This document shows positions 4,145 to 43,799 of a stretch of DNA of 64,000 bases, piece after piece. This DNA is from Diphasiastrum complanatum (Eukaryota > Streptophyta > Lycopodiopsida > Lycopodiales > Lycopodiaceae): positions 43,132,858-43,196,857 of the forward strand of contig CM055097.1 of NCBI GenBank assembly GCA_029204225.1, written 5' to 3'. Made by a program: the position numbers and the translations under genes. The first letter of the stretch is position 1, and each line of letters opens with the position of its first letter. The notes under the pieces are model-generated. The model saw only the letters and a program-made list of their open reading frames with translations. It had not been told where the DNA came from and did no database searches.

Positions 4145-4164
4145 GGAGGAACTAGTTATATTGA

Positions 4165-4360
4165 ACCTGATATCAGTTCAACACGACTGAATGATTTCGG
4201 TCGAGGACTGAACAATAGTGTGCATGTTGATCTGATATCGTTTTGACGAGATTGAAATTTTTTGGACGACCACACGTCAGAAGAGACTGATATCGCTTCA
4301 GCATGCCTGAATGAATCTGACCAGTGTAGACAAAGGCGCGCGTCGATTTGATATCGCGAG
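4165..4360. promoter_or_regulatory. Second motif cluster of copy A
   Basis: Four imperfect copies lie upstream of the inverted X start: CCTGATATCAGTTCAACACG (about 4168), GTGCATGTTGATCTGATATC (about 4210), ACTGATATCGCTTCAGCATG (about 4287) and GCGCGCGTCGATTTGATATC (about 4336). They occur in both orientations, as in the control regions of copies B and D. Confidence 0.5.
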
Positions 4361-4730: not shown

Positions 4731-5888
4731 ATGACTTTTGTCTTTTACATATCTGTTGAAATTTCTAATGATGAGTCTGTTGAATCTTCTATTGTTCCAA
4801 TGATTGAAACATATGCATCTGCTCCAGTTGATGTAGATGATGCAGATACTAATATAGGAGTTGAAGCTGAAGCATCTATGACTTCAGATTATCAGAAAAC
4901 TCTCTCTCGTACTATAATCCTCTCTGATTCTCTTCCATCCGCATCTCCTGTTAATCAATTAACTCTACTCGATATTCTCATATATTTTATAAATAATTAG
5001 AGCTATATTTCATTTAATGATATAGAAGATGTTTTAAATTTGAGAGAGGATGAAATCCTCTCAATTTTTGCACAAAATTTATCAGAATTTTCTAACAGTG
5101 TTAATTACACATAAAATGACCTTGAAAGTGAGATAGATTATAATAAAGATGACAATTGAAAATCTGGCAATGAGGCCTTGGAGGCCATGATTGAAAAATC
5201 TAAAGCCTATGAAAAAACTTTGCCTATAGAGGAGTAATTTTTGGAATTCCAAAAAAAATATCCCCCAAGGACTCGGTATATCCCCTCCGAAAATGTAGAG
5301 GCCATTGGAGGACATGACATTAGCAGAGCAAACGTCGTTGAATACGATGATTATGATTTGGTACGTAGATATTATATTGGTATTGATATTGTTCAGTTTT
5401 CTTATTTCAAACACTGTGTTAAAGTATGAGTTTGTAGTGTTATGTATCATTATAAATTTATTTTCTTTACTCGTTTACATGATGCTATTGAAATAGATGC
5501 CTTTGGTATGAAACATGGAGGTGTCTGAGGTGTATCAATTAGGAGAAAGGATGTGTCTCTATCTCATTATTTGAAAAACTTTCAAAATAATGAGATTTTT
5601 ATATATCATTCATCTTTTAATCCATATGCTACCACCGTCATTATGGCCATCAAATCGTTATTAGTTTGTTTAGGAGGCCATAAGTACGCAAGAGGAACAT
5701 ATAAAATAATTTTTGTGAAAAGAGATTTGGCCATTACAATATTGGGTTATACTCCCAATGAGATTACAAAAAGATCATCTGCAATGGTCCTTTATTTGGG
5801 TTACATTGATACGAGCAAAAGGAAAAATTTAGAATTTTTGGATCCATATGAAGGAGATTATTCCTTCATGACAATACCATCCGTCTGA
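4731..5888 (+). pseudogene. Protein X, middle and C-terminal parts (copy A)
   Basis: The plus strand encodes blocks that match X of copy B in order. REDEILSIFAQNLSEF matches REDEVLCLLSGIISEF; LEFQKKYPPRTRY matches MAFQSQMGFPRPS; HYLKNF...CLGGHKYARGTYKIIFVKRD matches HYLRHF...YLGGHKFVKTNKIIFVKRS. An intron of about 120 bp (about 5360-5480) sits where copy B also has an intron. In-frame stops at about 4998, 5112, 5157 and 5237 break the frame. No known domain is recognised. The conserved GGHK and IIFVKR blocks in two diverged copies suggest that the protein was under selection. Confidence 0.7.
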
Positions 5889-5913
5889 ATCTTGAAGAGA
5901 ATGATGATGATAA

Positions 5914-8614
5914 TTAAACAATTTTATGTAATAGATTTTTGATATATTTCAAGGATCTCTCTTTTGTAATGAATTTGAATGCCTTTAAAAAAATCGCAAC
6001 ATTTGGTGAGTTTTTAACTTGATATCTAAATTGTGCTCTTTTGTAAAACCACTGAAAAAGTTGAGCTAAATATTTATTTCTTGAATTGTGTCCTCCATGA
6101 TTTGTAGGACTATGAAATACTCCTCTTGCTTGCCAATGAGATTTTTCCATGCCTTGTGATGACCAGATACTTAAGCTCTTATATTCCTTTGCAAAATAAG
6201 TTGCATGATGAAGACGAATGTGCTGCAAACAAGAGTTTTGATTAGTTACATCAGCAGAAAAAAATATAATCCTGAATGAGATAAACACCAGATAATGATA
6301 TAAAATAGCACCATGTAATGTGTAACGTTGTCTTTTTTCCAACAATCATTCAAATTTTACAACTGTGGTGCAATGATTTTGCAAAGTCCTCATGTCTTCT
6401 AATGATAGGTTTTTTTTCCTGATAACACCTATGAGTTTGTCTAAGTTGGTCCACACTTGTCCCTTTTCCACTCAATTACTTCCTTCCAGTGTTCGCGTGG
6501 CTTGAACAATTTCTCTCCAAATTTTGTTTTTGACACTTGATTCTTTGCATATGTGATTGGATAAGAATCTTCTTGCTTTAGAATCTCCAAATGATGGCTT
6601 ATTAGGAATGTTTCCTTTTTTTCCAAAGAGTCTGTCACTTTTTTCAATCGTGACATTCCCTTTATGTAGTCCTGCATTTGACAGAACTATTTCCAACCTC
6701 CTCATTGTTGCTTTAGCCACATACTCCGGTTTATGATTCCATGCTAGGAGAATATGCAGGTAAATAAGTTTTTCAATAATACGAACCTCAGCATGCAATG
6801 TGCATATGTGAACATTTTTAATGGAATTGGCAGAACACTTTTCCTATTTGGATCTTCAGCTTCTCGTGTTTGATCGTCTCAAATTAATATTGTAGCAATC
6901 CTTCATGCAATAAGTGACATGGATGCTTTGATATTGCCCCATGAGAGACATTATACGTACATTTTAATGTTTTCAAATCCCCTGCAAGGTGCCATTGAAT
7001 TTGAAAACTTCCATAGTTTTCGACTGTAAATTTCTCACCCTCCAAATGTCTTTTTATAATCTCGCTAATGCATGACATGTCAAATTTTTTTTGCAAGGTA
7101 CGGAATGTTAATAACGATACTTTAAATAAAAATTGAAATGTATACTTGGAATGCCGCCAACCACCATATGTGATTTTTTGATTGAAAACTAAACGTTCGA
7201 TCATCTGTATCTGAAATTTTGTTTATCAAAGTGACACAACTTGTTCCAACTTTTGACCTTTGATGATTTCATATTTATCCAATTTTATTACAATAATGAT
7301 CTTTCCATTTACTTGATGTTCGTCTAGTTTATAGAATCGAATAACGTATTTTAGAACATTTTCAATATCAAGGAAAATATTATTGCAATCGTTGTAATCG
7401 AGCTCACCATATTTTGATTTGTATAATTCAGTTATATGAAGTGGTTGGCCAACTACTTTGAACATTTCGTCATTATAATAATTTCTTGCTAATCTTACCT
7501 GATATGGACGCGGAAGATAAGTTTTCTTCACCATCACTTGAGAAAAAGCTTCTTTAACTATTCTAAAAAAGTAGAATAAGCATTTTTGCTAATTCCATAA
7601 ACATCACATGCACCCACAATCACATTTGCATCCAAGTATGATTGAACCTTAATCAAAACAGTCTCTGCAATTTCATTTTTCATTTTTTCAAACCGAGCAT
7701 TTTTCATCATTTCCTTTGTTGACTTTCTTGGTAAAACATGACTTAAAGATGATCCAATGCATGAACGATATGTTAAATAGTTCTTTGCCACCAAACATGA
7801 TCTGCAACAAACATATGAAACTCAAATTATGTTTAATAAATAAATAATCCATGTTATCAAGTGCAAATCAATGTTATCCATGTTATCAAGTGCAAATCAA
7901 ACTTAAATGACATATACAAATCAAATAAACAGTTAATATGACAACTTACTTGAATGTACGAATTCTTATTTTCTGATTGCCGCTATATGTAGATAAGTCA
8001 TCAATATTCTTCATCGGTACTCTCTTTCTTTTTTTCTTCATCATTGCCTTTTTGATAACTTTTATATCAACAACAAATTTTAAATTCTCGGATCGCAACT
8101 TTCCATGGATTCTAACATTTCTTGGTTTGATCCCCGAAGAGTAGTGACTATAGCATTCAACTCTGACATAGCATTCTTGAGTGCATTGTTTTCAGCACTA
8201 GTGTGTTGCACATAATGAAGATTTGCACATTGCAACTGTAATTGCTGATTAAGACAAGATATGCTATGAATTCTAATATCACGCAACCTTTGACAATATC
8301 CAAGTAATCCGCTACTTCCTTCACATACAAATCTGAGAAAATGAGTTACGGACTTAAAATTTGGACACAAATTGGTAGCTGGGATCATTAGGATAAATTA
8401 ATCCATCCACCCACAAATCTATATTCATATGATTATTCATTCTCAATTCTCTAACTATTGCAGCAACATTCTCTACAATTTTCAAATTTTTCTTAATTTT
8501 GGAGTGCATTCCATAGGAAGAGCAACATGCAAATGGAACATTGCCATTGTTGAAAGCTACAATCCGTAAATGCTTCAAACTACAGTAAATGTTCAACATG
8601 AACAGATCTAGCAT
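5914..8614 (-). pseudogene. Transposase candidate T (copy A), broken into several frames
   Basis: From high to low coordinates this strand has an N-terminal block (IDLWVDGLIYPNDPS, then SSGLLGYCQRL), a coiled-coil-like stretch, VNGKIIIVIKLDKYEIIKGQ with an invariant Asp, HLAGDLKTLKCTYNVSHGA followed by a Cys-containing HPC, CTLHAEVRIIEKLIYLH, GNIPNKPSFGDSKARRFLSN, and finally SLSIWSSQGMEKSHWQARG with an invariant Glu. Each block has a counterpart in T of copy B. Introns and frameshifts separate them, and at least two blocks have lost their frame. The spacing recalls RNase H-fold DDE transposases with a Cys-rich insert, but that is an inference from pattern. Confidence 0.65.
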
Positions 8615-8639
8615 ACCTTACTTTTGTAATGTTTATGTC

Positions 8640-9117
8640 ACGTTGAAAAATCGTCCCGCCTCATATTTCACTATAAGCATACAGTGATTTCAAAAGTTCT
8701 GCTACTCCCGCTTCAGTTTTTGCATTGAGCACACCAAGATTTTCAATCTTAAAGCTCTAGTCCCGAATTTTGGAACGAGCATGAAGAGAAGTTATTACAT
8801 CTCATGCTTAACTAACTATTGTTTGAAGTTAACCATACCAGTTAAACGTCAGGCAATGCCGAAAACTCGGAAAATGGTGACCAGAAGTTATCGGTTCGCA
8901 TTCTCTCTCTACGTAATCTCTCTCTAAAGTGAAATTTCTTAAATGGCCCATTTTGAGCCCATATTTCTCTTAAGGAAGCACGTTTTGAGTATGGATGCAT
9001 CAAGATCCATTGATATTTACGATATATTCTTGGCATCCATTGATCTTCTGCATTTTTTTCATTGCAAATATTGACTGCATCAATGGTTCGTCTTGGTCTC
9101 CAATTATGTGTAGCCAT
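8640..9117 (-). pseudogene. N-terminal part of protein Y (copy A)
   Basis: Exon 1 (9117-8842) begins MATHNW and contains RPRRTIDAVNICNEKNAEDQW and WILMHPYSK. These match RPRSTIDSVILYNEKDEADNW and WVLLHPSSK of copy B. A second exon piece (about 8780-8640) contains ELLKSLYAYSEI then a stop, which matches IYFYESLYMPQTDGG. The Y frame then stops and T begins, so the C-terminal half is missing. Basic and aromatic residues are frequent near the N-terminus. Function unknown. Confidence 0.7.
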
Positions 9118-9540
9118 TAGTCCAAAATATGTGTTCGCAAGCTGAGAACGGAGAGAATGAGAGGTAAATCTATGAATGACAATCCAAAATGTCTATGGAA
9201 GCTAAGAACAGAGGGAACAAAGAGAATGAGAGGTATACCTAAGATTGACAAGAAATTCCTAAACTATAAGGATTAGTTAACTCCAGTTTACGACTATTGA
9301 CGTCAAATCAACCTTGAGTGTACAAAGATGGGCAACAAAAGAGTATTCGGGAAGTAACTTTGTTCCACTCACAATCGTTTGTTCTGCTCGGCGGGATATT
9401 CGAAAATCACAAAAATTTGGCCGGGAAAGGCAAAAACAATTTCCGTCCATCAACCACTGTTACAGTTCGCCACAGCTGGACACTATTTATTGGGACACAT
9501 AGGCGTTGAAAGCGTGTGAAGTAAAAAAAAAACATCTTGA

Positions 9541-12325: not shown

Positions 12326-12527
12326 ATGGCAGCTTCCACAAAAATTGTGTTGCTTCTTGCATGTTGTATGACATTGTTGTGTTCAAGCCTGGGAGCAGTA
12401 GGTAATGGCTATAAAGTCTCATCTCTCAACAATACAGGTGATGGAGGCATTCAAGCAATCTTGGATGTTATTGCCAACACGGACACCTTTGGTCCTGATA
12501 TCCAACAGCTGCAGGTCATCGCAAGGT

Positions 12528-12581
<54 letters not shown>

Positions 12582-15564
12582 AGTAATTTGATGTGTTTCT
12601 GCTACTGTAGCTACGAGACCAATGATAGGATTGATGTGCGCATCACCGACAACCGTAACAAGAGATGGGAAGTCCCAGAAGACCTCATTTCAAGAAAAGA
12701 TACATCAGCTTCATCATCTTCTGACATTTTCCCTAAAGATTATCAACACAACGATCCATCGAATAAGCTCCAGTTCTTGTACACAAACAATCCATTTGGG
12801 TTCGCAGTTACAAGACCATCTAGCGGAGAAGTTTTGTTCAACTGTACCCCCTCTTCAGCTGCATTTGGACCACTGGTCTTCAAAGATCAGTATATAGAGC
12901 TTTCTACGTACATGCCCACAAGCGCTTCTCTCTATGGATTAGGAGAGAGTACCAGACCTGACGGATTCCGTCTAATTTCAGGACACATGTACACGCTGTG
13001 GACAGCTGACATAGCAAGCATAACACCCAACATGAATCTATACGGTGCTTTTCCTTTCTATATGGATGTGAGACCGAGTAGGAATACACATGGAGTGCTT
13101 CTTCTCAATAGCAATGGCATGGACGTGGTGTATCAAGATGAATATCTCACCTACAAAACTATTGGTGGGATTCTGGACTTCTATTTCTTCGCTGGACCTT
13201 CGCCTTTGTCTGTTGTCCAACAGTACAGCGAGATTGTTGGGCGCCCAGCTGCAATGCCATACTGGTCACTTGGTGCGTATATAAGCCATCTCCCTATTTT
13301 ACTCCTTTGCCGAAAAGGTTATAAGATCTCTTTTTTCCCATTATGAAGTCTCTGCCTTGAGAAACTTGGCTCGACATGTAGTGGTAGCAATATCGATCAT
13401 TCTATTCGGCAGTTGCTTCTGGAAAACTTTAGTGACTGTTGAAACGTCATCACATGGACATCAAATACTCCCTAACGAGATCAGATCATGAAATCAATCC
13501 ATCTCAGCGAATAAAAGATGCAGATCCCTTATTCATGATCCCAATGCTGATCAGATAATTTTTACCAGGAACTTGCTAAAAGTTTATCGGACTAATTAAG
13601 TGCTGGATGTAGGCTTCCACCAGTCAAGGTATGGATACAAAAACGTGTCGGAGCTGGAAGATGTGGTAGCTAAATATGCATCAGCAAATATACCTCTGGA
13701 AGTGATGTGGTCAGACATAGACCACATGGACACCCGAAAAGACTTCACGTTTGACCCAATAAATTACCCTCCGAGCAAAGTGAGCTCCTTTGTGCAGAAT
13801 TTACATGCGGCCGGCCAACGCTATATTCTGATTGTTGACCCTGGCAAGTTATCTAAAATTTAAAGTTTTTTTTTTCTAGCTCCATTTTACACTTAGCATT
13901 GCAATCTATGTCATACATGTAGGTGAAGTAGTAAATGCTTCTCATTTTCCATCAAATTCACCTGGTTTTGTTTTGTAGGCATTCTGGTTAATAACAACTA
14001 TAGCACATACACAAATGGGATGGAAAATGATATCTTCATCAAAAGTTCCTCTGGCGGTAGCCCGTATCTTGCTCAGGTCTGGCCAGGGCCAGTCTACTTT
14101 CCTGACTTCCTAAACCCAAACACACAGTCTTACTGGACTAATGAGATCTCCAAATTCCGTAAAGTAGCACAATTCGACGGACTATGGATTGACATGAACG
14201 AGGCATCTAACTTCTGTAGTGGTGTGACCTGCTCATTCTTGTCAGATGGTTCACCATGTCCCCGTGCATATGCACCCACCACATGTTGCCTTAATTGCAG
14301 CAACAAACATGGAAGCAAGTGGGACTATCCACCATACAAGATCAACAATGCTGCCTCTCAGAGAGATCTTGGAGCGAAGACTATTGCGACTAGTGCTGTA
14401 CACTATGACGGAATTCTGGAGTATGATGTTCATAATCTTTATGGGATGTCGGAAGCAATGGTTACAAATAGGGCATTGCAGTCAGTGCTGAAAAAAAGAC
14501 CTTTTGTTCTTTCTCGTTCTACATTTGTGGGCGCTGGAAAATTCACTGCTCACTGGACAGGCGACAATGGCGCTACGTGGGATGATCTCCGCTACTCTAT
14601 TGTCAGTGTACTTAATTCGGGACTGGTAGGAATCCCCATGGTAGGAGCAGACATATGTGGTTTTCTGTTTGATACAACAGAGGAGCTCTGCAATCGTTGG
14701 ATCCAACTTGGTGCTTTCTATCCCTTCGCCAGAGATCATTCTGACATCAATAGTAAGCCTCAAGAGCTTTATCTTTGGCCATCGGTTGCACACTCTGCAA
14801 GAAAAGCCCTTAGCCTTCGCTACCGTCTTCTGCCATATTTGTACACACTAGTCTTTGAGGCTCATGTCACGGGCGCCCCCATGGCCAGGCCTTTGTTTTT
14901 TTCATTCCCCAATGATACACAAACTTTGAACATAAACAGCCAATTTCTCCTAGGGAAGGGAATTATGGTATCCCCTGTGCTAGTTTCTAATGCCACAACT
15001 GTAAGTGCATACTTTCCCCAAGGAGTCTGGTACAACCTCTTTGATTATTCACAGCTAGTAGATGCAGGCAATGGACACACCCAAGTGCTGTCTGCTCCTT
15101 AGGACACAATAAATGTGCATGTCAATGAAGGCTCCATAATCCCAATGCAGGAACTGGCTTCAACCACATCTCGAGCTCGTAGAACCCCTTTCACTCTTGT
15201 AATAGCCTTCTCTTTGCAATCCTACTCCACAGCATCTGGATCTCTTTTCCTGGATGACGGTGAATCAATAGACATGGAACTAGCGCCTAGTGCTAATTCT
15301 ACCTTTGTAACTTACGAGGCAACCCAAAGTTCCTCAGACGGTGGCGTCCTAACAAGCGCAGTTGTAAATGAAAATTTTTCTTTGAATCAAGGGCTACTTC
15401 TGCACAAACTGGTCCTCCTCGGTTTACAAGCTGCACCAACATTTGTGTTAGTCAACAGTGCTCCATCAGAATCTGCAATAATCCAACAAATTTCTGCAAA
15501 TGCAGCGCAAATTTCTGGACTTAGAATTCCTGTGGGCTATAGTTTTATTGTCTCTTGGAAATAA
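12326..15564 (+). pseudogene. GH31 alpha-glucosidase/alpha-xylosidase-like gene, four exons, one in-frame stop
   Basis: Proposed exons are 12326-12525, 12611-13272, 13613-13843 and 13979-15564. Together they give 893 in-phase codons, the usual size for plant secreted GH31 enzymes. The N-terminus (MAASTKIVLLLACCMTLLCS) is a signal peptide. The GH31 nucleophile motif [12 protein letters not shown] places Asp at codon 436, and HWTGDN places the acid/base Asp at codon 560. Other family marks are [16 protein letters not shown] and PFARDHS. Members cleave alpha-linked glucose or xylose, for example from xyloglucan in the cell wall; I cannot tell which substrate applies. Codon 739 (15100-15102) is TAG. 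The frame then continues unbroken through the C-terminal beta domain (HVNEGSIIPMQ) to 15564, so this is a recent nonsense allele, a sequencing error or a young pseudogene. Confidence 0.9.
12532..12580 (+). repeat. (CT)n microsatellite inside GH31 intron 1
   Basis: About 24 uninterrupted CT units fill most of the 84-bp first intron, starting only a few bases after the 5' splice site (AAG/GTGGTC). The acceptor is CTACTGTAG at 12602-12610. The run probably supplies much of the pyrimidine tract. Confidence 0.95.
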
Positions 15565-18513: not shown

Positions 18514-18548
18514 CATTAGAGGAGTTCTCAATATCAAAAAGACCCTTT
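18514..18548 (+). repeat. Left terminal inverted repeat of copy B
   Basis: It starts CATTAGAGGAGTTCTCAATA and ends AAAAAGACCCTTT. It is identical over 35 bp to the reverse complement of 27836-27870. Similarity stops right after (GTAAAGATAC here). Confidence 0.97.
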
Positions 18549-18873
18549 GTAAAGATACTTTTATTTGTTTTCTTTAGTTTCGACCGTCACCAGCCCCAAT
18601 CAAAATGCACAAATTTGAAATCTACATAACGTAGTTCAAATTAACTAAAAAATAAAAATGCAATATAGAAAACTTTGAAATTTGTGTCCGGGCAGCATGG
18701 ACGTATCCCATTGGTTTCTTCTTCCTGCCCGACACGTGCTAATCTGCCTGACGTCAATATCTCAAGTTAAATTTACTTTACTATGCTGGTTAGTATAATG
18801 AACTTTTCTAACTGTACTAGTTTCAGTTATAGAAATATAGTATGTACAGTTACATAAAATATGGTATACGTAG

Positions 18874-18886
18874 TAACTGTGACTAT
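18874..18886 (+). promoter_or_regulatory. Subterminal repeat TAACTGTGACTAT (left)
   Basis: The 13-bp word TAACTGTGACTAT occurs 360 bp inside the left end and again at 27705-27717, about 150 bp inside the right end, on the same strand. Shorter AACTG/CAGTT words cluster around both. Subterminal repeats often bind transposase; that role is inferred here. Confidence 0.45.
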
Positions 18887-18979
18887 GTTGGCATTCACAT
18901 TAGATTAAATGTGATACGAAAAATTAAAATTAAGTAACATATCAGAGAGATTTTTGGCGCCCAAGCTTTGAAAATAGCA

Positions 18980-20180
18980 ATGGCGAGGAGACCCAGATCT
19001 ACAATCGATTCTGTGATTCTTTACAATGAGAAAGATGAAGCTGATAACTGGAAGCCAACAAAATATACGAAGAACTCATGGGTATTGCTGCATCCATCAT
19101 CAAAGGGCAATTTTCGACAAAAGAAAAGAGCAAAAATGACTTACAAATCTTATTGGAAAGCAAAATTTTTGGAGTTTAAGACTACCCCGGGAGGTCAATT
19201 GATATCAGAAGTCTTAGTGCAACATGTGTATATATGCATTCAGAAATCAAAGTACATGATATCAATCCTCATGATCATAAAAAATGTAATTGTAAGTATA
19301 TCAAAACATATGCACTCTACAACAATCATAGGTGATTTCCTTTATTGATGTTTTTCAGATTAGATTTAAATGCTTCAACATTGTTTTTTTTTTCAGATTT
19401 ATATCCATCATGCATAAGTGAATGGGAGCCCGCACAATCACTTGCAGGAATATTAGACGTGATTCACTCTGATGTTGGAAAGCTACAATACAGAGGAAGA
19501 AGTCCAAAGGAACTTGCAGATTGTGGTATCTATTTTTATGAATCTTTATATATGCCACAAACAGATGGAGGTTTTGGCAAGCTCGAGGCAATTCCATTGC
19601 CTAGTTTTCAAAGTGATGAGTGGCCTACTCCTGACAGCATTGTTTCTGAATCCTTGAGATGCAAGCTACTCATTGATATTAAAAATGCTATGAAGATAAG
19701 CACAGGCTCGAAAATTGTTCACCTAAGTTGGTTTATCTCATTGCATACATTTGTTGATTTTTTCTTGAGTGCTAGTGTTCGTAGGACACCAACTTTATTT
19801 GTTTGCAAGGATTTATCAGATGAGACTTTGTCAGATCTCATGGATCAAGGCTGGGATAGTAAAACAAATAATGACATAGAATGCAAGATTAAAAAGTCCT
19901 CAATGATCTTTCGTTATCTTATCGAAAAGAAATGCTCAGTCTCACATTTAGCTACCATAGATACAAGAAAATTGAAGGTACATGGCTACCACTGGATCAA
20001 GACTTTGAACTAAATGGTCACACAAACCGAATGGAGATAAGCATTATCTAGAATGAGGAATATTTGACTATGGTTGAGGTGGAAGACACTGGAAGCTTGA
20101 TTTTATCAGAACAGAGCTCATGCTATTACAAACCAATCTACCAGCATATTTCAGATTTATCATCAACGGAAGACTCGTAA
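18980..20180 (+). pseudogene. Protein Y of the transposon (copy B), unknown function
   Basis: I chose the ATG at 18980 (MARRPRSTIDSV) because it matches the start of Y in copy A. Exon 1 contains YNEKDEADNWKPTKYTKNSW. Exon 2 starts after TTTTTTTTCAG near 19396 with DLYPSCISEWEPAQSL and includes SDVGKLQYRGRSPKEL, IPLPSFQSDEWPTPDS, TPTLFVCKDLSDETLSDLMD and IECKIKKSSMIFRYLIEKK. The frame shifts after about 19970, where the next frame gives PLDQDFELNGHTNRMEI and YLTMVEVEDTGSL. The end, near 20180, is approximate. Copies A and C carry the same blocks. No known domain is recognised. It begins about 470 bp from the TIR and converges with H3-Ulp1. Confidence 0.7.
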
Positions 20181-20545
20181 GTACTTTATGTTTATTTCCA
20201 TTTCAAAATAGAACAAAATAATAGAAAATGTCATCATTTACAATTGCACATTCACTAATATTTGCCATGTCACAAATGCGAAAAAGACAAGAGCTGATAA
20301 CGTGCTGCAAAGATCTACCTACAACAATCACCATTGTGGGAGAACAATAGTTTCAAATAAACTTTAGTAAAAATCTGTGTATACACCCTTTCATTCAATA
20401 AATGAAAGCCCAAGTTGGGCATCTGTACATGTATTTTGTGCTCCCAAATTCATAAACTGGAGCAGCATTTGATATATCAATGTATATTTTTCTATGAAGT
20501 CTATACATGTATTTTTGTTCTATGCTATCTATATTTTTTCTGGTC

Positions 20546-22252
20546 TTAATTTAGTACAACTATATCATCCTTTGCACCATCATCAATAATGGGAGGCTGA
20601 AGCCTTGCCCTAGCCAGTATACTCAGGATAATTTCTTGTGTAAATTTGTACACCTGGCTTGATGTGTACTCAAGAAGTGTAAACTGCAAAATAGAACATT
20701 CATGTATTAGTAATGGCCAATAACATCACTAGAATAGAAAACTAATCATGATTCCAAAATAAGAATAAACAGAATTCATTACCTTAGAAATATCAACATC
20801 TTGTTGAAGGATGAACCACTGAAAAAACAACTTGGCATTGTACAATGTGTACCACCCACAACTGAATGAATCATTTTGCTGGGGTGACTGCAAAATAATT
20901 CAGCACACAAGAAATCAATTATGAAACAGAATGAATTAGATTGAAAATATTTCATTAGAATACTGATTTCAAAATGCTATTAAGAAAGACAAAGTTTACC
21001 TCCAAGCTGACGATCTGCCAGTCCACGGAATGGGAAACGTTTGTAGGAATATATTTACTTAGATATGGAATGAATATATCTACATCCTTATGCGTATTTC
21101 TCATCTTGACACAAGAATATTTAATAATATCATTTACAGATCTCTTAATAGAGATCAGGTTTAAACTCAAGTGGTCACTGCAAAATAAGATTGAAAGTAC
21201 TTTAGCGGCAATTTTGAGAACTATTTAAATTGAAAATGTCAATGTTAATGCATAAAACAGGAAGAAGCACTTAATATGTCTTACTTGGTATAATAAGAAA
21301 TGACCAGATACTTTGTTGCTGGTGTGAATCCACTTGTCAGACACTGTGACAATGTGTCATTATTCTCCTTGAAGGCATGGAGTAGAAAGTTACTTAACAC
21401 CAGCAACTCGTTTGATGAATCTCTTGCAATGTCAAATTGCAAGAGTGTCAGCCGGGACTCTATCACAGGATCACTGATAGAAGCCCGTCTATCTTTGTGA
21501 TCCAGGCAATCTAGAACTCTAAAATTAATACTAAAATCAAGTTCTTCTAGTCTAAAACAAAAAGGAGTACCAATTGTATCTATAGCATCCGATATGTCTT
21601 TCTCAAATTTAAGATAATCATCCGAATCTATATCTGTATAGAAATTGGGAGGAGGAGGAGGAGGTGGATGTGTAGTATCTACAACAATTATAGGAGTATC
21701 CAAAACAAAGATAGCTATATTTACAGCATTATCTACAATAGATTCTGGGATAGGCTTCACTTTCTTAGGAGCACACTTGGGAGCTGTCTGCTTCCTAGGA
21801 CGCTTCGTAGGAAGATGAGTCCTATCTACAGGAGTTGGTCTAGGAGCAGCAGGCTGAGATACATGTAGCCTACAGTACCTATCCCTCATTCTCATCAGAA
21901 GCTGAAAATCCTTGGACATTATGGTAACCCTCTTGGTATGGATGGCAAGCAAAAAAGAATCCTCAAAAAAAAGGCTAATATAATCTTTAGCAGCCTCCTG
22001 AAGGCACTGAAGAGCATTCGATGTGAATCTAACGTGTTGTCCGAGATCATTTTTTGTTATGTTTCGGATAGCCCGGTAGAATGGACCTCTTGGGATCAAC
22101 AGAGCTGTTGACCTCTGATACTTGCATATCTCAGAGAGCCACCTGCTGCGGTTGCGCGTTCTAGGTCTAGCAGGTGGTGTGATGGCAACCGCAGGAGATG
22201 AGGATGAGCCAGGAGAGAAGAAGTCTCTCCTTGTCTACTTTCTCCTATCCAT
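20546..22252 (-). pseudogene. Histone H3-like domain fused to Ulp1/C48 cysteine protease (copy B)
   Basis: Exons 22252-21285, 21177-21000, 20887-20783 and 20683-20546 join in phase (463 codons) with GT-AG introns. Residues about 30-125 are an H3 histone fold: RSRWLSEICKYQRSTALLIP (H3 LREIRKYQKSTELLI), then VRFTSNALQCLQEAAKDY, then FEDSFLLAIHTKRVTIMSKD (H3 [20 protein letters not shown]). Loop lengths equal H3, without the longer loop 1 common in CENH3. A Lys/Pro-rich linker with PPPPPPP follows. The C-terminus has Ulp1-type marks: NDHLSLNLISI for the catalytic His, and SPQQNDSFSCGWYTLYN for the oxyanion Gln and nucleophile Cys. The Asp of the triad is not clear. Codon 6 is TAG (22237-22235), so this copy cannot make the full protein unless it starts elsewhere. 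Members of C48 remove SUMO or related modifiers; acting on chromatin is an inference from the fusion. Confidence 0.85.
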
Positions 22253-23072
22253 GGGAGTGAACTATGTGATAGCGGACTTGTGCGTGAAGGAAGGGATGAT
22301 AAAGAACTCGCAGAGGACCGCTATGTACGGACAGAATGTACGGTATATCAGACCTATGCAAGCCGAATATCAGAGAGAACGATTAGATTCGAGGAAAGAC
22401 GCACAAGTGCGATATGGGGTGACACGTAGGCAGACGTATCGGACATGTGTGCATGGAAGGTAGTAGGAGAAATTTTGATTGTGAAGGGCGCGCACAACTG
22501 CGATATGCAGAGTGAAAAAAAAAAAGCGAAAAAAATTCATCAAAATTTGTGATTTTATATTGGGGTTCGCACGTGCGAAAGAACATCCTGTCACACATGT
22601 GGGAGTTGTACGAACAAATGCGAGAGCGACATGTGTCACCCTGTCACACTACACGTGTGGGATTTGTACGATCGAATGCGAGAGCGACACGTGTTTATGA
22701 GCAATCGAATGAACACACGACACATGTCTAGGTGTCATTTCACACGTGTGCAGGTGTCATCTCACACGTGCCTGCGCCTGTTGTCGAATAGAAAGTAGAC
22801 ACATGTCATAAGTTCGTTGACCACACGTGCAAAAATTTAGTATAAATGGCACAGAAACCTAATAATTTTTTACCTTTTGCATTCTCAAAATTCGCGACAT
22901 ATCGCTTTTGTGCGCGCTCATTGTTGCCCGTTTGCTTGCAAGTATACCTACTCGTGCACAAGTGCGATATTCTGTGTCTGTCTACCGTACATATCCATCT
23001 TCTGTGCCATTTTGATAGTTAGTTTTGGTTCAGTTCTCCCGTGCGCACAAGTGCGATATTCACGCTACTGTC
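22253..23072. promoter_or_regulatory. Divergent control region of copy B with five GCACAAnTGCGATAT motifs
   Basis: The region lies between the start codons of H3-Ulp1 and X. Motif copies are 22401-22415, 22491-22506, 22899-22917 (reverse), 22954-22970 and 23041-23059. The last, GTGCGCACAAGTGCGATATT, ends 13 bp before the X start codon. The middle part (22560-22840) is full of CACGTGTG and ACACATGTC words, including CACACGTGTG at 22741. A TATA-like AGTATAAATGG is at about 22840. These features suggest that both genes are switched on together, possibly by an element-encoded DNA-binding protein. Confidence 0.65.
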
Positions 23073-24586
23073 ATGGCCTCTTCCTCATCATCCTCACGAG
23101 AATCAGGCTTGAGTTCATTTCTGAGTGAATTTGGGATTATTGAAAATCTGGACTACTTCCACAGCCTATTCAGACCATATCTACATGTTTTCAGGACTGC
23201 ACAACCAAATCTTGACGTATTTTATGAACATTATGTCAGATTCAGAGATATACTTAGCAAGCATGTTTTCTCCATAGGTCAACTCCAGTACATGCATTAT
23301 CCTGATGTTGTTCATTTCTTCCTAGCTTTTAGACATAGACTAGATAGAATGTTCACCAAATTGTTTGATCTTTTCAAAAGTAGTTCTATGTGTCCGTATT
23401 GCAACAAGAAATGTCAATTGGTTGAATATCAGAGTGGTTTCGTACTTTTTCTTTTAGTTCAGATCCCAGATGATGATGGGTTTCCTGTTGCTGACCCTCT
23501 TTTTGCACCCTCCTCTGTTCAGTCAGCCATTTAGGATATCAGTCACTTTCTTATCGACACTCTTGATAAAAGTGACTTCATTGATTTAAATACTGATGTT
23601 CTCCGAGATTCTTTCATTGGCCAAAATACATCTGATGATGAATCCAAATCTATGGAGGATTCGAAATGTCTTTTCAATTTGCCGGTATATTATATTAATG
23701 ATAATGTATATTTTACTACTGCTGATTTATGTAAATTTTTTGACTATCGTGAGGACGAGGTTCTATGTTTATTATCCGGCATAATTTCCGAATTCTTCGA
23801 CTTTGTAGATTTTGAGACAGATGACCTTGTTGCTAATATTGATTTTGATAATAAGGAGGGTCTTATGACCGGTGAAGAATGCCTGAATAAGACTTTATCA
23901 AATATAGTTGAGGATGGGCAAGACAGACCATCCGATGAAGAATTCATGGCATTTCAATCCCAGATGGGCTTCCCTCGTCCATCATTAATGCATTTCACTG
24001 ATGATTCCACTTCAGTACGTGGTCATTATATTGATCATCCTGATCTGGTTGCTGCTGATGATGAAGAATGTGTAAGTGTTTAATCTTCCTTGCATTTGAA
24101 TGTTTTCAATCACTGAATGTGTTTTTGCTAATATATTTCCTATTGCAGGATGCTCTCATAATAGATGATTTTGCTGCGAGACGAGGTGGTTTCAGACAAC
24201 ACGCATCCTCGTTCCAGAGGGACAGTGGACTGGGCCACTATCTTCGGCATTTCTTGAAGAGTGAGATCTGTATTGCTCATTCCAAGCTGAGCCCAGTCGG
24301 GGAGAGTCTTATAATGACAGTTAAAGCTTTATCATTTTATTTAGGAGGACATAAATTTGTTAAGACAAATAAGATCATTTTTGTCAAAAGATCTTATGTT
24401 TTGAACATTTTAGGCTTTATTGATGGGAATGTTCCTTTAAGGAGCTCTCATTATTCGTTGTATTCCACTTATATTGAGCTTAGTGGAAATAAGGATAATG
24501 CACATCTATTAGATGCATATGCTAGCAGAGAATTTCTTCATGACAATACTACCATAGAATCTGATACAAGATTTGATGATGAATAG
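23073..24586 (+). pseudogene. Protein X of the transposon (copy B), unknown function
   Basis: Exons 23073-24071 and 24149-24586 join in phase (479 codons; GT-AG intron of 77 bp). The start MASSSSSSRESG is preceded by a promoter motif. A Cys cluster CPYCNKKC lies at codons 107-114. The acidic middle contains FDYREDEVLCLL and ISEFFDFVDFETDD. The C-terminal exon has RDSGLGHYLRHFLKSE, SFYLGGHKFVKTNK and IIFVKRSYVLNILGF. Codon 154 (23532-23534) is a TAG stop, with coding similarity on both sides. Copy A preserves the C-terminal blocks. It is divergent from H3-Ulp1 and convergent with T (112 bp apart). No family is recognised; the Cys cluster and GGHK block could form a zinc site. Confidence 0.75.
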
Positions 24587-24698
24587 TTGACACTTTGTAT
24601 CATACAATCAATACATTTACATTGGGTATTGCTCCTCTCTTGTTCAATGAATTTGCAAAGCAATTCTGAACATGTCATGATGATCTTCTACTCAGCAA

Positions 24699-27347
24699 TC
24701 ATCTAATTTTCTCTTCATGTATGAACTTGCATGCTTTTCTAAACTTGTTGTATTGTGTGGACTTTGTTGTATGTCGAATCTGAACTCTGCGGTAGAACCA
24801 CTGAAACAATGGACAAATGTAGTTTCGTTTTTCATTGGTTCCTCCATGTTGTGTATTTCGATGAAATGCTGCTCGTGCTTGCCAGTGTGACTTCTCCATC
24901 CCTTGTGATGACCATACACTCAAGCTTCCATATGTATTTGCAAAAAATGCTGTATGATCTCTTAGTATGTGCTGCATATGTCAAAATCATAATGTTAGTC
25001 TTATGTTTAGATCTAAATATATATGAAAATTTGAAAGCATTTTGAAAATTTTATACCAACCATGTAATGAGTGATGTGATCTTCTCCCCATGCTTTTGAT
25101 ATTGCATTAACAAACTTGCCACAAGTCCTTTGGACAACTTTCTTATCAATATCAGAGTATTTTTCTTTTCTTAAAATAGCAATCATACTATTAAGCTTTT
25201 TCCATACATCAACTTTTAGTACTCTGGTTTTGCCGTCTTTCTCGAAGTCCTGAGTGGCAAAACTAAAATTCGTCCAGACTGAGTGTTGAATATTAGAAGC
25301 CTTACCAGTATGATTTGATAGAAAATGACGTGCTTTTGCTCCTCCTATGCTTGGCTTAGTTGGCATGTTCCCATTCTTTCTTGAAAGCTTTTCATCTTTT
25401 TGAATTTTGACATGTCCTTTGTGGAGTCCTGCTTTTGATAAAACATCTTCTAATCAAGAGATAGCTTCCTTTGCTAATGATGCTGGCTTAGTATTCCAAG
25501 CAAAAACTATATGAAGGTAAATGATCTTTTCTATTAATCTAACTTCTGCATGAAGAGTGCAAACATGCACATTTTTTAAGGGGATAGGCAGCACAGGCTT
25601 CCAGTTTGGATCTGCATATTCTCTAGTAATTCCTATACTCCTAGTTACATCTTTTGCCATTTTCATGCAGTACAAACAAGGGTGTTTTGATGTAGCACCA
25701 TGAGAGACATTATACATACATTTCAATCTTTTCAAATCACCTGCTAAGTCACATTCAACATTGAAGTCTCCAACTCCTTGAACATTGAGAAATCCTCCAT
25801 CCATATGGTCCTTGATGATCCTAGGATAAGATGTCCTTGAGAATATCCATGATAATATATCATGATCCTCTATCAGCACCTGTCCAAAGAATTAATCATA
25901 CTTAGTTTACATTGTATTAGTACTATTCAATGAATGTAATGTAATAATGAGGCTAGTTACCTGAAACGCAGCCAACCACCATATATCATTTTTTGACAGG
26001 ACACTGAATTTGAAATCTTCTTGGTTCTCTGTTTGGGATAGAGCACCATTCATGAGAGTTATACTAACCCTTTCCATCTTCTGCCCTTTCACAATTTCTG
26101 ACTCATCTAACTTAAGTACTATGATTATTTTGCCATTCACCTTTTCATAGGTTATATCATAGAATGTGACGATGTATCTCAGCAAGTAATTTAGATCAAC
26201 AAATAAATTGTTTGATGAATTATAGAATATCGATCTTCCATCAATTTCATACACCTCCTTAATATGGAATGGAGTTCCAGTGACCTTATGCATACCTATG
26301 TTTAATGTATCCCTCTCTTTCTTCAAGTGATATGTCCTAGGGATTGGGACTTTTCTAATTTGAACTTGCTTAAAAGCTTCTCTAATTAGTTTAAATATTG
26401 TTGCATATGCTTCCCTACTAATACCTGCAAAATCACAAGCACCCTGAACTATAGTCTTATCTAAAATATTTTGAATGTCTACCATCAAAGGCTCTGCTAT
26501 TTTACACTTTACATTTGAAATCCTATTGTTCATCATGATACGCTCAGTGGATTTGCAAGTCAATATTGTGCCCAATGACATTCCTAGTGAAGCATTGTCT
26601 TTAATATTCCGAGGAGCTACTAATGCAAATCTGCAAAAAAAACATATAGTTAACAGAATATCACCATAGCTGAAATTAAATCCAAATGTCATTGAAAAAC
26701 TTACAAAATTTAGAATATGCTTACTTGAATGCACGGATCCTTCTATTTCAATAACCTCCTTTTGAAAGCGTTTGAATATCCTTGCAACTTTGTCGCTTTC
26801 GCTTCTTACTTTCAGCCTTCTTCTTTACCAAATCCACATCCTTCAGTAATTGTATGTTTTCAATACGAATAGACTATAAGACTGATTGCATTTGCTCTAG
26901 TTCTAATTTGATATTGATTGCTATCTTCTGTAATGATTCATTATTTTTTTTAAGTTGTTCATTTTATTCTAACGTCTTTTGGAGATGACAATCTCTATTC
27001 TGACAATAAGAGGATATCCGAATTAACTCCTCTAAAAAGTGAGCTTTATTCATATAAAGTTGTTTTCCATGGTTTTGCAATCTTTCACAATATCCTAGTA
27101 ATCCACTATGCCCATTGCATATCCATGTAACTAAATGAGTTATTGAAGAGAATGTGGGATGTGTCAAAGTGCTTGGATCTTGTGGATATAATGTTCCATC
27201 TGTCCAGAAATCCACGTTTTTCTTTCCTTCTGCCCTGTAACGAGAACAATCTTCAGCAGATATTTGAATTCCTTTGCCTCCTCTTCTCTGCAAAGGTGCC
27301 AAATCAATAGGGATATTCACATGTAGATGATATAATGTCATCATCAA
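24699..27347 (-). pseudogene. Transposase candidate T (copy B)
   Basis: Exons on the minus strand are about 27330-26735, 26634-25961, 25879-25062 and 24971-24699. The N-terminus has NVDFWTDGTLYPQDPS and NGHSGLLGYCERLQN, then a coiled-coil-like basic part with stops near 26961, 26877 and 26757. The core has VNGKIIIVLKLDESEIVKGQ (Asp), CDLAGDLKRLKCMYNVSHGA with SKHPCLYC (CxxC), HVCTLHAEVRLIEKIIYLHI, GNMPTKPSIGGAKARHFLSN and SLSVWSSQGMEKSHWQARAA (Glu), then HGG and LFQWFYRR. These blocks are shared with copy A. A core Asp, a Cys-rich insert before a second acidic block, and a late Glu recall Transib/RAG1 DDE enzymes, but I could not align them. A TGA interrupts codons near 25454. It starts near the right TIR and reads inward. 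Confidence 0.65.
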
Positions 27348-27704
27348 AAAAATAATAGAGTAATCAGTTGCATCAAAGTACTATGACTAGATTATATGAA
27401 GCAAAACAAAATACTCATCTTTGATTATATTATATACTATGTATAATCAATCCAATCTCCATGCTTGTATGCTTGATTCAAATTTGGAAATGTCGCTCAT
27501 TTTTTCATTCCAATAGGCAGTTGGCACTCATATTTCCATTCTCATGGAAGGAATGCATATGTAAACATTTTGCAATTTTTCCTAAATTGAATTTGGGGAT
27601 GGCGGTCATATTCTAGATCTAGTGAAAATATTGCCCTTTTCGTAACCAATGGAGGGGATATTTTTGAATTTAGTCAAGTTATACTGCGAACTGTTAACAG
27701 TTCT

Positions 27705-27717
27705 TAACTGTGACTAT
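27705..27717 (+). promoter_or_regulatory. Subterminal repeat TAACTGTGACTAT (right)
   Basis: This is the second copy of the 13-bp word found at 18874-18886. It follows GAACTGTTAACAGTTCT, itself a palindrome. Candidate binding site for T. Confidence 0.45.
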
Positions 27718-27835
27718 AGACACTGTGGTTAGATCATTGGGAGTTGGGGAGGCCTTGGGAGTGGTGTGGGCAAGCAAATAAACAATATTGTTTTATTTAT
27801 TTTGATATTTTTGTATATCCTACATGGCATTCCTT

Positions 27836-27870
27836 AAAGGGTCTTTTTGATATTGAGAACTCCTCTAATG
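27836..27870 (-). repeat. Right terminal inverted repeat of copy B
   Basis: This is a perfect 35-bp inverted match to 18514-18548. Just inside it is CTACATGGCATTCCTTA, also present just inside the terminus at 41632, so the subterminal sequence identifies this as the T-side end. Confidence 0.97.
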
Positions 27871-31239: not shown

Positions 31240-31672
31240 ACAAGCATCTAATCTTAAAGCCTTAGAACATTCACATAATGTTCTATTCCTTCTGAACCTA
31301 AATCACTTTAGGAGGTGTCTAGTACACCTTAGAACAGCCTTTAAGAGTCCCCAAAACTCTGATCTTCCCTCTCCTTGAATGCTAGAAAGCCTCCTCTATG
31401 AAATCACCTCCAAAACTCGCTTAGAAATCAATGCTTGGAGCAAGCAAAAACTTGCTATCTTGGTAATGTGAATTGAATTCAACTTTGCCTCTGGTTTTAG
31501 ACACCTAAACACCTGCAAATGAAGTCACACAACACCAATCTCCAATGTATTTGAGTCACTTTGAGTTCTAGAATCAATACTAGATGCTAAGATCCAATCT
31601 ACACAAGATTTAGATCAAAAATTGTGATCAAATTGAATGAAAACCAAGGATTTAGCTCATTTCAGCCTTTAG

Positions 31673-39655: not shown

Positions 39656-39679
39656 ATATTTTTTTTTTGGGACAAATAG

Positions 39680-40280
39680 TACCAATTCCATTACCTAGTT
39701 TTGAAAGTGATGAATGGATTGCACCATATGCTACAGTTTTAGAATCATTTCATTGCCAGATATATAATGATGTAAAAAATTCATTAAAAATGAGCACGGG
39801 ATAAAAAATAGTCAGATTGAGTTGGTTTATTTCCTTGAATATATTTGTGGATTTCTTTTCAAGTGTCAATGTACACAAACCCCAACAATGTTTGTATGCA
39901 AAAATTTATCAGATAGTTTATTATCTGAACTTATGGATGAAGGCTGGGACAAAAGATCAGATGGAGAAATAGAATGCAGAATTAAAATGTCTTCCATGTG
40001 CTTCCGTTATTCAATTGAAAAACAAATGTTGAGCTTATGCTTCCATTATCAAAGATGAAAAAAAAGATAAAGGTAAATGGGTGCCACTCGGTCAAGACTT
40101 GGAAGCCAGTGGACATTGAAAATGAAAAAATATCGAAATTATATACAATGATGTCATTTTGACGTGTGTTGAGGTGGAAGAAGATTGGAGTCTAGATTAC
40201 ATCAGGCGGAAACTATTGTTCCTACAAGATGTTGTACTTTCAAACTTCAGATTCATTTTCAATGGTAAACACGTAAGTAA
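39680..40280 (+). pseudogene. Protein Y C-terminal half (copy C)
   Basis: It reads IPLPSFESDEW, then KMSTG with a stop, then LSWFISLNIFVDFFSSVNV. After a one-base frame change it reads TPTMFVCKNLSDSLLSELMD, IECRIKMSSMCFRYSIEK and PLGQDLEASGH. All blocks match Y of copy B in order, across one stop and at least one frameshift. Confidence 0.75.
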
Positions 40281-40849
40281 CTACTGTAAACACTCGATCT
40301 TGTATGAATAGTCTCAATCAAAACTTTCTAATACAATCTCTGTATCAATTGTAACTCACTTTGTATTAGATTTATGCACGTACGTAAAAGACATGAGCTC
40401 GAGATCAAATGCAGAGATATTGGTGAAACAATCCAACTTATGGAAGAACACTGATATTCACTATCAACAAATACATGCCAATCATCATGTCTTTTTATCA
40501 ATATAGAAAATTGCATTCTAGTATTACACTATGGACACAACCTGATTGTAAGAATCTATATTGATATTAATAAAAAAAATCCATAAACGGGTTGTTTACA
40601 TGTAAAATGATTGTATCTTCTTTTTTTTATGTATCTCTATTTACAAATAGATCTCTATTCAGTCAATTTTTCTATATTTTCTTTATCACTATTAGGAACC
40701 GATAAGGGAACAACTCCTATAATCTTGCCTTCCTCTGCTTCGGGAAGGGCCTCAATGCCTTTTAAGGCAAGAGGACCCTCTGCTATAATATCACCTTCCT
40801 CTGTATCAGGAAGGACTTCTATTCCTTTTTTATCGTATATAATAAGATT

Positions 40850-41430
40850 TGCATCCGAGCAACCTGAAAGGCAATTAAAGCAGGAGCAGCTTGCTTTTGA
40901 GGGCCCTCGATCATAGGTGCAACGCTTACACCGTTCTAGGCATAGGTTCTGATCAACTCTTGCCGAAATCTATATACATCGTCAGGAGTATACGGCTCAA
41001 GAGTGAATTGTCATCACAAAACACGAGAATCAGCAAATTACAAACAATGATAGCAAAGAAATATGAATCAGAATAAAAGAAACTACAAATGAACAGAATA
41101 TTACCTTTTCAATATCTACATCTACTTGTAAATTATACCACTCAAAAAATAGCTTTGTATTGTACAAGACAAGCCATGCACAACTAAAAGCGTCCTTTTG
41201 CTGTAAACACACTGCATATATTAGTAATACTATGATAGAAAGTTCATTTATGCTATGATCATAGATTTGAACTAAAAAAGAAATACATGCATTTTAGAGA
41301 TAAATTGAATATACCTTGAGAGATCTAATGGTTATCTCTCCAATTGAGGTTGTCGTTGTCGGTAGAAATGTCACTCCTAATTCAAATTTTTGAGTGTTCC
41401 CAACTATTGGGAGGGAATATTTCAGCATTT
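40850..41430 (-). pseudogene. Ulp1-like protease domain remnant (copy C)
   Basis: Exon 2 remnant: KYSLPIVGNTQKFELGVTFL (41430-41314). Exon 3: QQKDAFSCAWLVLYNTKLFF (about 41203-41104), which keeps the Gln and the catalytic-position Cys but has Ala in place of the following Gly. Exon 4: FTLEPYTPDDVYRFRQELIR (about 40985-40900). Splice sites match those of copy B. Confidence 0.75.
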
Positions 41431-41582
41431 TAAAAATTATATTTTAACTATGGTTAAGCACCAGTGAAGTTTGATGTGACTAAACTAAGGTGCATTCATT
41501 TACATGGAAAGTAGTGCGGGCAGATGCATAAAGAAGTTGGAAAATGATACTATATTTACTTTATAGTTATTTTTCTCTCTCC

Positions 41583-41632
41583 TACATGGCATTTCTTATA
41601 GGGCCCTCTTTGGGCCCATATTTTCTCTAATG
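41583..41632 (-). repeat. T-side terminus of copy C
   Basis: CTACATGGCATTTCTTATAG near the start and TTTTCTCTAATG at the end match 27820-27870 in layout. The first bases of the terminus, CATTAGAG, are identical. Confidence 0.7.
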
Positions 41633-41856: not shown

Positions 41857-43249
41857 AGATACTAATGGCGCGGACTAAGCAAACAACACGAGTCCACCCT
41901 GGTAGAATCCCAATCACAGGAGGGGGTCATGGAAATGCATCACCATCGCCTCGTCCACCACCACCTCCTCCTAGGCCAAGGAGCAGACGAAGAGACCCAC
42001 CCTGGCTCAAGTATATTCGGAAGCTACATAAGACCAATAATCTTCTGATTCCAAAAGCTCACATATAGAGATCCATCAGACAGGTTACAAGAAGTCTATC
42101 TACAGATGTGAGATGGATTGTAACGGCAATAGAGACGCTGCACACTGCATATGAGGATTTTCAAGTGAAATTTTTTTCGAATACTGTTGTTGCAGCTGTC
42201 GATGCCAAGAGAATGACCATCATGCTTAAGGATTTCAACATTGTATTCAGGCTACGGGACACATATGACAAATTTGAAAGGTACTTTACACCTGCTCCTT
42301 CCTTTCCTCTAAAACAAGATGCAGAGAAAAAAAACCGAAAGCAATCTCAACCATCCCAGCTTGTTTTTTGAGTATAGAGCAGGAGTGTTTCAAAGAAGAG
42401 GAGGTCTCATGACCCTCCTAATAAAACGAGAGATTTTTTAAAGCCATCTCCTCTACATGAGATTCTATCTGCTAGACAATCTCCTCCCAAGTCTCCTCAG
42501 TCTCATTCTTATTCATCCAAATCTCAATCTCCATATCCTCCTCCTAAAAATTCCTCTCCTAATAAATCTCCTCCTCCAAAATCTCAGTCTCTTCCTACCC
42601 CACCTCCTGTTCTAGAAAATGATTTAGATGATTTTGTAAATGTAAAGGTAGAATCAATTTTGAATGACAAATGTTTTTGTGGTTTATCTGTATTACTTCC
42701 TTCACCCCCTGCACTTGCCTTTGTAAATACTCCTCAATATGTACAGTATGACCAATTGTAAAACACATATCTTAAAGCTTTAGGTCCTCGATACAGTTTT
42801 AAGATGCCGAAGACCAATGTTGGTCTTCCCCTTTCTAAATAAGATATAGGTGAATTAGAAAGTAGGGATAAAATTCCAGGGGACAATGTAGGAGGTGGGG
42901 CAATTCAGTATTGGATGGAGTTTTTCCAAACCCCATTGTTTATAGATGTAGCATTGTTTCCATTTCAATTCATGGCTGAATTTGATTTCCTTGATTTCAA
43001 AAGTCTGCACGATGATATGCTCCAATATGTCAGACTGGGGACTCCAATTCTCGTGCTCCCATTCATAACAAAGTAAGTAAATTTCTATCAGATTTTATAA
43101 AGCTGAATTTTTTATATGAATTTTGATTTCACATTGATTCTCATAAATTTATTGTTTTTAGATTGCAGTGACCATTGAAGCTTATATGTGTTGTCCTTAT
43201 ATGTCAATGATGAGGGTGTGTGTACTCCAGGTTGTTTAAAGATGAACTC

Positions 43250-43356
<107 letters not shown>

Positions 43357-43455
43357 TGCCAGAAGCCATATCCAGAAAATACTAAACTCTTTCCAATACC
43401 ACATGCAATAGCATATACGAAACTGAAAATGGTTGATGCAGAGGTAAAAATTTAT

Positions 43456-43616
43456 CAATATCGGTTCGATGTGCCCTTGTAGTTATTGTTTGGTTTCTTT
43501 TCATATCGTGCGCACTGATCCGATATTCAAACAATATTTTTTGGATATCGGTTGGATGCACGCTTGTTTTCATTGTAGATTTTATTATAACCTCCTGTGC
43601 GTTGATCCGATATTTC
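43456..43616 (+). promoter_or_regulatory. Further GATCCGATATT motifs inside copy D
   Basis: GTGCGCACTGATCCGATATTC lies at 43508-43528 and GTGCGTTGATCCGATATTTC at 43597-43616. Two reverse forms (ATATCGGTTCGATGTGCCC near 43459 and ATATCGGTTGGATGCACGC near 43545) lie between them. They interrupt the protease similarity, so a promoter-like segment may have inserted here. Confidence 0.5.
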
Positions 43617-43799
43617 ATAATGTTAAAATTTTGCTACTAACTTTCGTTTATATTGGATACTACAGTCCTCCCAGTAGGTTGATTCTGTCAACTGTGGTTG
43701 GTATACAGCACTTTTTCAATTGGTTTGCACTACAAGATGAACTTCCTAATCTAGAAGAGGTAATCTTCAATTAATAACATTTAATTGTGTTTTTGTTTT

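Follow-up and report, generated by a model that had tools for sequence, protein, structure and literature searches.

A gene joining a histone H3 fold to a Ulp1-type domain inside a Diphasiastrum complanatum DNA transposon with a RAG1-like transposase

A DNA transposon of Diphasiastrum complanatum, here termed element A, carries within one gene both a histone H3 fold and a Ulp1-type domain. The first-pass annotation of this DNA had made this claim, which is borne out and is strengthened by a second gene of the same design in the same window, by which we mean the whole 64-kb stretch of DNA analysed. Element A spans 9,357 bp (18514-27870) and is bounded by perfect 35-nt inverted repeats, with which the CATTAGAG termini reported earlier proved to be real. 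Between these repeats lie four genes, in the order gene 1 (plus strand), the H3-Ulp1 gene (minus), gene 3 (plus) and a transposase gene (minus):

18514..18548, plus strand: left terminal inverted repeat, starting with CATTAGAG; 35 nt, 100% complementary to 27836-27870
18980..20010, plus strand: gene 1, in two exons (18980-19285 and 19393-20010) derived from reading frames; no Pfam match
20546..20683, minus strand: H3-Ulp1 exon 4, ending in the stop codon
20783..20887, minus strand: H3-Ulp1 exon 3, with SPQQNDSFSCGW, which holds the Gln and the Cys
21000..21177, minus strand: H3-Ulp1 exon 2, with NDHLSL, which holds the His
21285..22252, minus strand: H3-Ulp1 exon 1, with the ATG at 22252, a TAG at codon 6, the H3 fold, the Lys/Pro-rich linker and the start of the protease domain
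22269..23059, no strand: cluster of CGCACAANTGCGATAT motifs, in the interval that separates H3-Ulp1 from gene 3, two genes in divergent orientation
23073..24583, plus strand: gene 3, in two exons (23073-24071 and 24149-24583); no Pfam match
24702..27310, minus strand: transposase gene, with core exons 26630-25961, 25879-25061 and 24971-24702 derived from splice sites and frames
27836..27870, minus strand: right terminal inverted repeat, the 35-nt partner of the left one, also with CATTAGAG

The introns of the H3-Ulp1 gene of element A (copy A) are of the GT-AG type and its four minus-strand exons join in phase, as had been proposed; codon 6 is an in-frame TAG, however, which the 463 codons given with that proposal count along with the final stop. 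In exon 1 the frame stays open from 22234 over 317 aa, for which the chance in one given frame is ~1e-8 at the base composition of the window, and it matches the Pfam Histone profile (PF00125) with an E-value of 4.4e-26 and 92 bits (cut-off 26.4). The spliced protein of 456 aa passes the curated cut-offs of both profiles against which the first-pass annotation had wished to see it checked: Histone with E 8.6e-26 and 91 bits (cut-off 26.4), and Peptidase_C48 (PF02902) with E 2.7e-05 and 24.5 bits (cut-off 20.7). The frame of exon 3 alone reaches E 0.0005 and 20.3 bits with the latter profile, slightly below the cut-off of 20.7. The histone fold is connected to the protease domain by ~197 open codons (chance ~1e-5 at the base composition of the window), and the Lys/Pro linker described earlier between the two is indeed present in exon 1. 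A structure model of exon 1 reached a pLDDT of 38.6, too poor for a fold search. At its start copy A reads MDRRK, stop, TRR, with the TAG of codon 6 at 22237-22235. As the residues around this stop run in step with the start of H3, the ATG at 22252 is probably the true start, and copy A a broken copy. Given this stop and a next in-frame ATG (in VTIMSKD) that comes only when the histone fold is nearly complete, copy A probably yields no full-length product.

Tblastn searches with the element proteins placed relatives in the window at 4.7-9.1 kb and 39.7-43.8 kb, where we delineate a second fusion gene, copy C, along with a truncated copy B and a diverged copy D:

4737..8617, both strands: copy D, diverged, with gene 3 at 4737-5849 (plus) and a transposase at 7821-5914 (minus)
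39670..41632, both strands: copy B, a truncated relative, with a piece of gene 1 at 39670-40025 (plus) and Ulp1 pieces at 41203-41078 and 41010-40951 (minus)
41865..43759, plus strand: copy C, a second, diverged H3-Ulp1 gene, with exon 1 at 41865-43072, exon 2 from 43169 and exon 3 at 43666-43759

Copy C begins with MARTKQTTR, the start of the H3 tail with a single change at the eighth residue, and matches Pfam Histone with E 9.5e-15 and 55.4 bits. Its Lys/Pro/Ser linker is basic and proline-bearing like that of copy A, its first intron agrees in position and phase with that of copy A, and its exon starts NDH and SSQ-stop-VDSVNCGWYT match those of copy A. Copy C contains several in-frame stops, and its protease part gives no significant Pfam match to C48. 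We relate this part to copy A because both genes have the same layout, because exon 2 starts with NDH and because the segment from Gln to Cys matches that of copy A (tblastn match in two pieces, E 0.004). An AC microsatellite of ~50 units (43254-43354) also lies within copy C. Codon positions 1, 2 and 3 agree between copies A and C at 49, 66 and 40 of 98, a pattern as would be expected if selection had maintained the protein. Since copy C has the MARTKQTTR start, the H3 fold, a similar linker and the same phase of the first intron, the fusion looks like a trait of the lineage and not a chance capture. In copy B the Ulp1 pieces correspond to the two final Ulp1 exons, and at 41632 there is an element end that belongs to this family and has CATTAGAG. 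A stretch near 8970 resembles this end; it lies in or beside a frame like that of gene 1 and is a candidate end of copy D (4737-9192). The relatives of gene 1 detected by tblastn in the window are at 39670-40025 and 9099-8983. Copies B and C are enclosed by an inverted repeat (38500-38811 and 45850-46150, 96% complementary), which probably extends further because its start coincides with the edge of the part that was searched.

Element A interrupts a frame for an integrase, judged by eye to be of the Gypsy type, at 18513/27871. When its flanks, 300 bases from each side, are joined, they form a single frame of 200 codons with no stops. The flanks of this sole complete copy in the window carry no repeated bases, i.e. 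there is no target-site duplication, and the insertion is seamless. This rests on the single copy A because no convincing left ends of copies B, C and D emerged when five stretches were scanned for CATTAGAG, allowing one mismatch. In-frame stops are present in the H3-Ulp1 gene, in gene 3 (one, at ~23532-23534) and in the transposase gene of element A, though its terminal repeats remain identical. As the 35-nt ends are identical yet at least three of the four genes carry stops, the element may have been mobilised in trans once its genes had decayed. Genes 1 and 3 gave no matches to Pfam, a RAG2-like domain included, and a scan with the NCBIfam profiles returned nothing above any cut-off. Elsewhere in the window we note pieces of a GH31 alpha-glucosidase gene at 12402-15564 (13933-15102 of which was searched), probably a host gene, and, by eye, polyprotein frames of the Copia type at 29152-31302, 47163-49497, 55317-59293 and 59803-60708. 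Elements of the Copia and Gypsy types next to a GH31 gene are in keeping with a plant genome.

The transposase is like those of RAG1 and Transib, and the link to Mutator-like elements drawn in the first-pass annotation is therefore not supported. We reject a Mutator origin on the transposase, with its RAG1-like fold and its lack of a Pfam transposase match, none being found in the pieces from the window or in the 10 scanned of the 24 homologues that were recovered. The predicted structure of one homologue, P0003, matches RAG1 and Transib among the first 35 of 50 matches. In 20 aligned transposase sequences both Asp residues are present in all 20 and each of two Cys in 19, and the HxxxxH and Glu occur in all three sequences that carry this segment (that of the window and two homologues), the other 17 ending or diverging earlier. 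In the window transposase the Cys lie at +20 and +23 from the second Asp, the His are 5 apart and the Glu is 20 past the second His. For mouse RAG1, the available text of PMC4914335 gives D600, D708, E962, C727/C730 and H937/H942; by these numbers D708 is followed by the Cys at +19 and +22, and there are 5 positions from one His to the other and 20 from H942 to E962. Hence, with D-D-E, CxxC and HxxxxH at RAG1-like spacing, the core is of the RAG1 type, its fold being that predicted for homologue P0003. The transposase of copy D likewise has the RAG1-type Glu segment, and its likely N-terminal part was located by eye at 8617-8080; that of element A lies at ~27310-26965 and contains in-frame stops, with one more stop at 25454. 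A search of PDB sequences with the transposase profile gave no match. In viral contigs 2 stretches fitted a pattern with the transposase part and 9 with the profile, and in bacterial and archaeal genome contigs the profile gave 125 such stretches; none of these was confirmed. Members of the Transib/RAGL group are described in the accessible portions of PMC8355894 and PMC9435367 as having 5-bp target duplications and CAC ends. Both ends of element A have CATTAGAG in place of CAC, and as this sole complete copy shows neither CAC termini nor a duplication of 5 bp, we do not assign it to Transib or RAGL.

Transposon silencing works through chromatin, and few transposons are known to counter it with chromatin proteins of their own. 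One case of such a chromatin-type counter-defence is VANC/KIU: as far as the available text of PMC13317346 describes them, the Ulp1-bearing VANC genes (KIU) of plant VANDAL elements act with hypomethylation of related elements and escape from silencing, and VANC elements contain motif clusters recognised by the accessory protein. A motif cluster lies on the promoter side of the H3-Ulp1 gene. With patterns that were picked after the sequence was seen, all 6 matches to CGCACAANTGCGATAT in the window at up to 2 mismatches fall within 22269-23059, as do 7 of the 11 at up to 3 mismatches (1.17 expected in the window), and the related GCGNNTTGATCCGATATT has 7 matches in the window (0.51 expected), of which 4 are in or adjoining copy C (41839-41856 and 43457-43614) and 3 to the left of copy D (3643-4239). 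In the window as a whole, the promoter-side motif cluster hardly occurs outside this family of elements and, by analogy with VANC, is a candidate target of the H3-Ulp1 protein.

We consider the chances about evenly balanced that the H3-Ulp1 gene is a standing accessory gene of this lineage, encoding the element's own anti-silencing or chromatin-access factor, which acts on chromatin on behalf of the element. The H3 fold would pair with H4, or engage H3-H4 chaperones or nucleosomes, and would thereby keep the Ulp1-type domain at chromatin; there this domain might remove or bind SUMO-type marks carried by factors that act in silencing or repair, and the H3-Ulp1 factor would serve the element's own genes and ends much as VANC/KIU serves the VANDAL Mutator elements. 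This reading draws on: 1) the occurrence of both domains in one protein and in a second fusion; 2) the codon bias, the grouping of the two H3 folds in the tree and the H3 residues that copy A keeps; 3) the Ulp1 piece of copy B; and 4) the KIU precedent for hypomethylation, in the available part of PMC13317346, together with the promoter motif cluster nearly confined to the family. Counting against it are: 1) the stops that break copies A and C and the fragmentary state of copy B; 2) the catalytic Asp, which is not placeable in A or C; 3) the H3 residues lost in both and the lack of a significant C48 match in C; and 4) the want of a relative of the fusion, since the full-length protein found none at E <=0.001 among 3,688 candidates of a protein database (prefiltered by shared short exact words and similar length), and in viral contigs the H3 exon gave 2 stretches that fitted a pattern, neither of which was confirmed. 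A bolder version seems to us doubtful. In it, this RAG1-like lineage would produce an H3 variant of its own, attached to a SUMO-protease-type enzyme, which in or against nucleosomes would mark the element's own copies as unsilenceable; the transposon would then bring along a histone-based chromatin editor, one that may be aimed by the motifs.

For copy A itself, the case for nucleosome entry and SUMO removal is weakened by its stop at codon 6 and by a protease Asp without a confident position. The His, Gln and Cys named as Ulp1 marks in the first-pass annotation are kept in copy A (NDHLSL and SPQQNDSFSCGW), where they align with yeast Ulp1 (1euv) in a weak alignment (E 0.14), the best of three matches in a search of PDB sequences with the Ulp1 part. 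The Trp that follows the catalytic His of Ulp1 is Leu in copy A, and in the same weak alignment (E 0.14) it has a Cys opposite the catalytic Asp of 1euv. A VND triplet common to copies A and C places an Asp 14 (A) or 12 (C) residues past the His, as against 17 in 1euv. We call the domain SUMO-protease-like and withhold the label of an active protease, as the Asp cannot be placed with confidence in A or C. The main rival to the proposed chromatin role, a possibility to which we give well under an even chance, takes the domain to be a dead Ulp1-type binding domain, with the H3 tail and fold serving either to decoy histone readers or chaperones or to bring the transposase to nucleosomes, as a kind of handle. 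The third catalytic residue, which cannot be placed in either copy, and the MARTKQTTR of copy C, which imitates the most-read part of H3, speak for this rival, and RAG2, the partner of RAG1, which according to the accessible portion of PMC8355894 reads H3K4me3 by a PHD finger, offers a precedent in kind for contact between a RAG1-like system and the H3 tail. However, the Cys, Gln and His positions kept in copy A would be needless for a mere binder, the Asp of the shared VND is a candidate for the catalytic one, and the other genes of the element show no RAG2-like domain by Pfam.

The stop at codon 6 of copy A would also suit transduplication, in which pieces of host genes were captured by chance and never functioned in the element; plant transposons do capture gene pieces, with decay or loss as the commonest fate according to the available text of PMC13317346. 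Against this stand the presence of one and the same fusion in two diverged copies, the phase of the first intron common to both and a bias across codon positions, as well as the linker of copy A inside a long open frame, and we regard transduplication as unlikely.

The histone part was examined for its affinities to H3 and to the centromeric variant CENH3. Its best match among PDB sequences is fission yeast Cnp1, to which copy A is closest, with 50 of 99 aligned residues identical, and a fungal CSE4 is the only one of 6 candidates from a protein database to match at E <=1e-10. Loop 1 of copy A exceeds that of H3 by one residue, which makes the canonical loop lengths claimed for this domain inexact. 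Copy A also lacks Gln68 and has a Pro in its LLIP that plant CENH3 sequences have too. A captured CENH3 that guides either the element or the element's product towards centromeres would fit these features. Nevertheless, the bit scores of Cnp1 and H3 are nearly equal (80 and 77.6), Phe84 of copy A is as in H3, and copy C has the H3 length of loop 1, a Trp84 and a MARTKQ start. Copy A is 39-51% and copy C 28-36% identical to ten reference cores of H3 and CENH3, and their H3 folds are 35% identical to each other. In a tree of 12 sequences, with three of its ten references from retrieved sequences, A and C group together against the references with an ultrafast bootstrap of 96, both as long branches for which attraction is possible, and in the trees computed the deep nodes on which their placement with H3 or CENH3 rests have support of 29-51. 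We find the CENH3 reading improbable. Copy A keeps the H3 residues R69, R72, R83 and F84, which have roles in the nucleosome, and H113, R116, D123 and L126 of the H3-H3 interface, and has lost R49, R52, R63 and Q68. Of the interface residues, R116 and D123 are also present in copy C, which has lost H113, L126 and others. Finally, that the H3 and Ulp1 parts are separate genes wrongly joined is highly improbable, for while the C48 profile match starts only past the end of exon 1, the ~197 open codons bridge the two parts in copy A, the introns preserve the phase and copy C has the same layout.

Among known systems, element A differs from Transib, from the RAGL (ProtoRAG) elements and from the RAG1 core in its CATTAGAG ends, in lacking a 5-bp duplication at copy A and in carrying three further genes, the H3-Ulp1 gene among them. 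From RAGL it further differs in having no RAG2 recognisable by Pfam. For plants, 39 Transib-like proteins are reported in PMC9435367, and the comparison made here is one without those 39. A RAG1-type transposase with other ends, and with no duplication at one complete copy, bears on the variation among relatives of the recombinase of antibody genes. The KIU/VANC genes of VANDAL are likewise accessory transposon genes with an Ulp1 domain, but their transposase is of the Mutator type where that of element A is RAG1-like, and the review PMC13317346, in which the word 'histone' occurs 0 times, mentions no histone part such as the H3 fold of H3-Ulp1. In the Ginger1 transposons of animals an Ulp1 domain also occurs in a DNA transposon as in element A; in the part of PMC2836005 that describes it, the fusion partner is a Gypsy-integrase-like transposase and no histone. 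Judged by titles, abstract openings and term counts, the matches listed from the open-licence literature place Ulp1 in elements of the Mutator and Ginger kinds and report histones from viruses, and they include no transposon-borne H3-Ulp1 fusion, in agreement with the earlier statement that no transposon-borne H3 joined to Ulp1 was known. Transposons with an accessory Ulp1 gene are thus known, whereas the histone part of such a gene is undescribed among those listed open-licence matches. If functional, the fusion would show a histone fold delivering an enzymatic domain in nature, and the arms race of elements with silencing could be tested on it. Relative to histone H3 and CENH3, with which it shares the H3 fold by profile, H3-Ulp1 adds a long branch, a C-terminal Lys/Pro linker and a protease-type domain. 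The virus-encoded histones described in the available text of PMC9145170 are likewise the histones of genetic parasites, but those parasites are DNA viruses.
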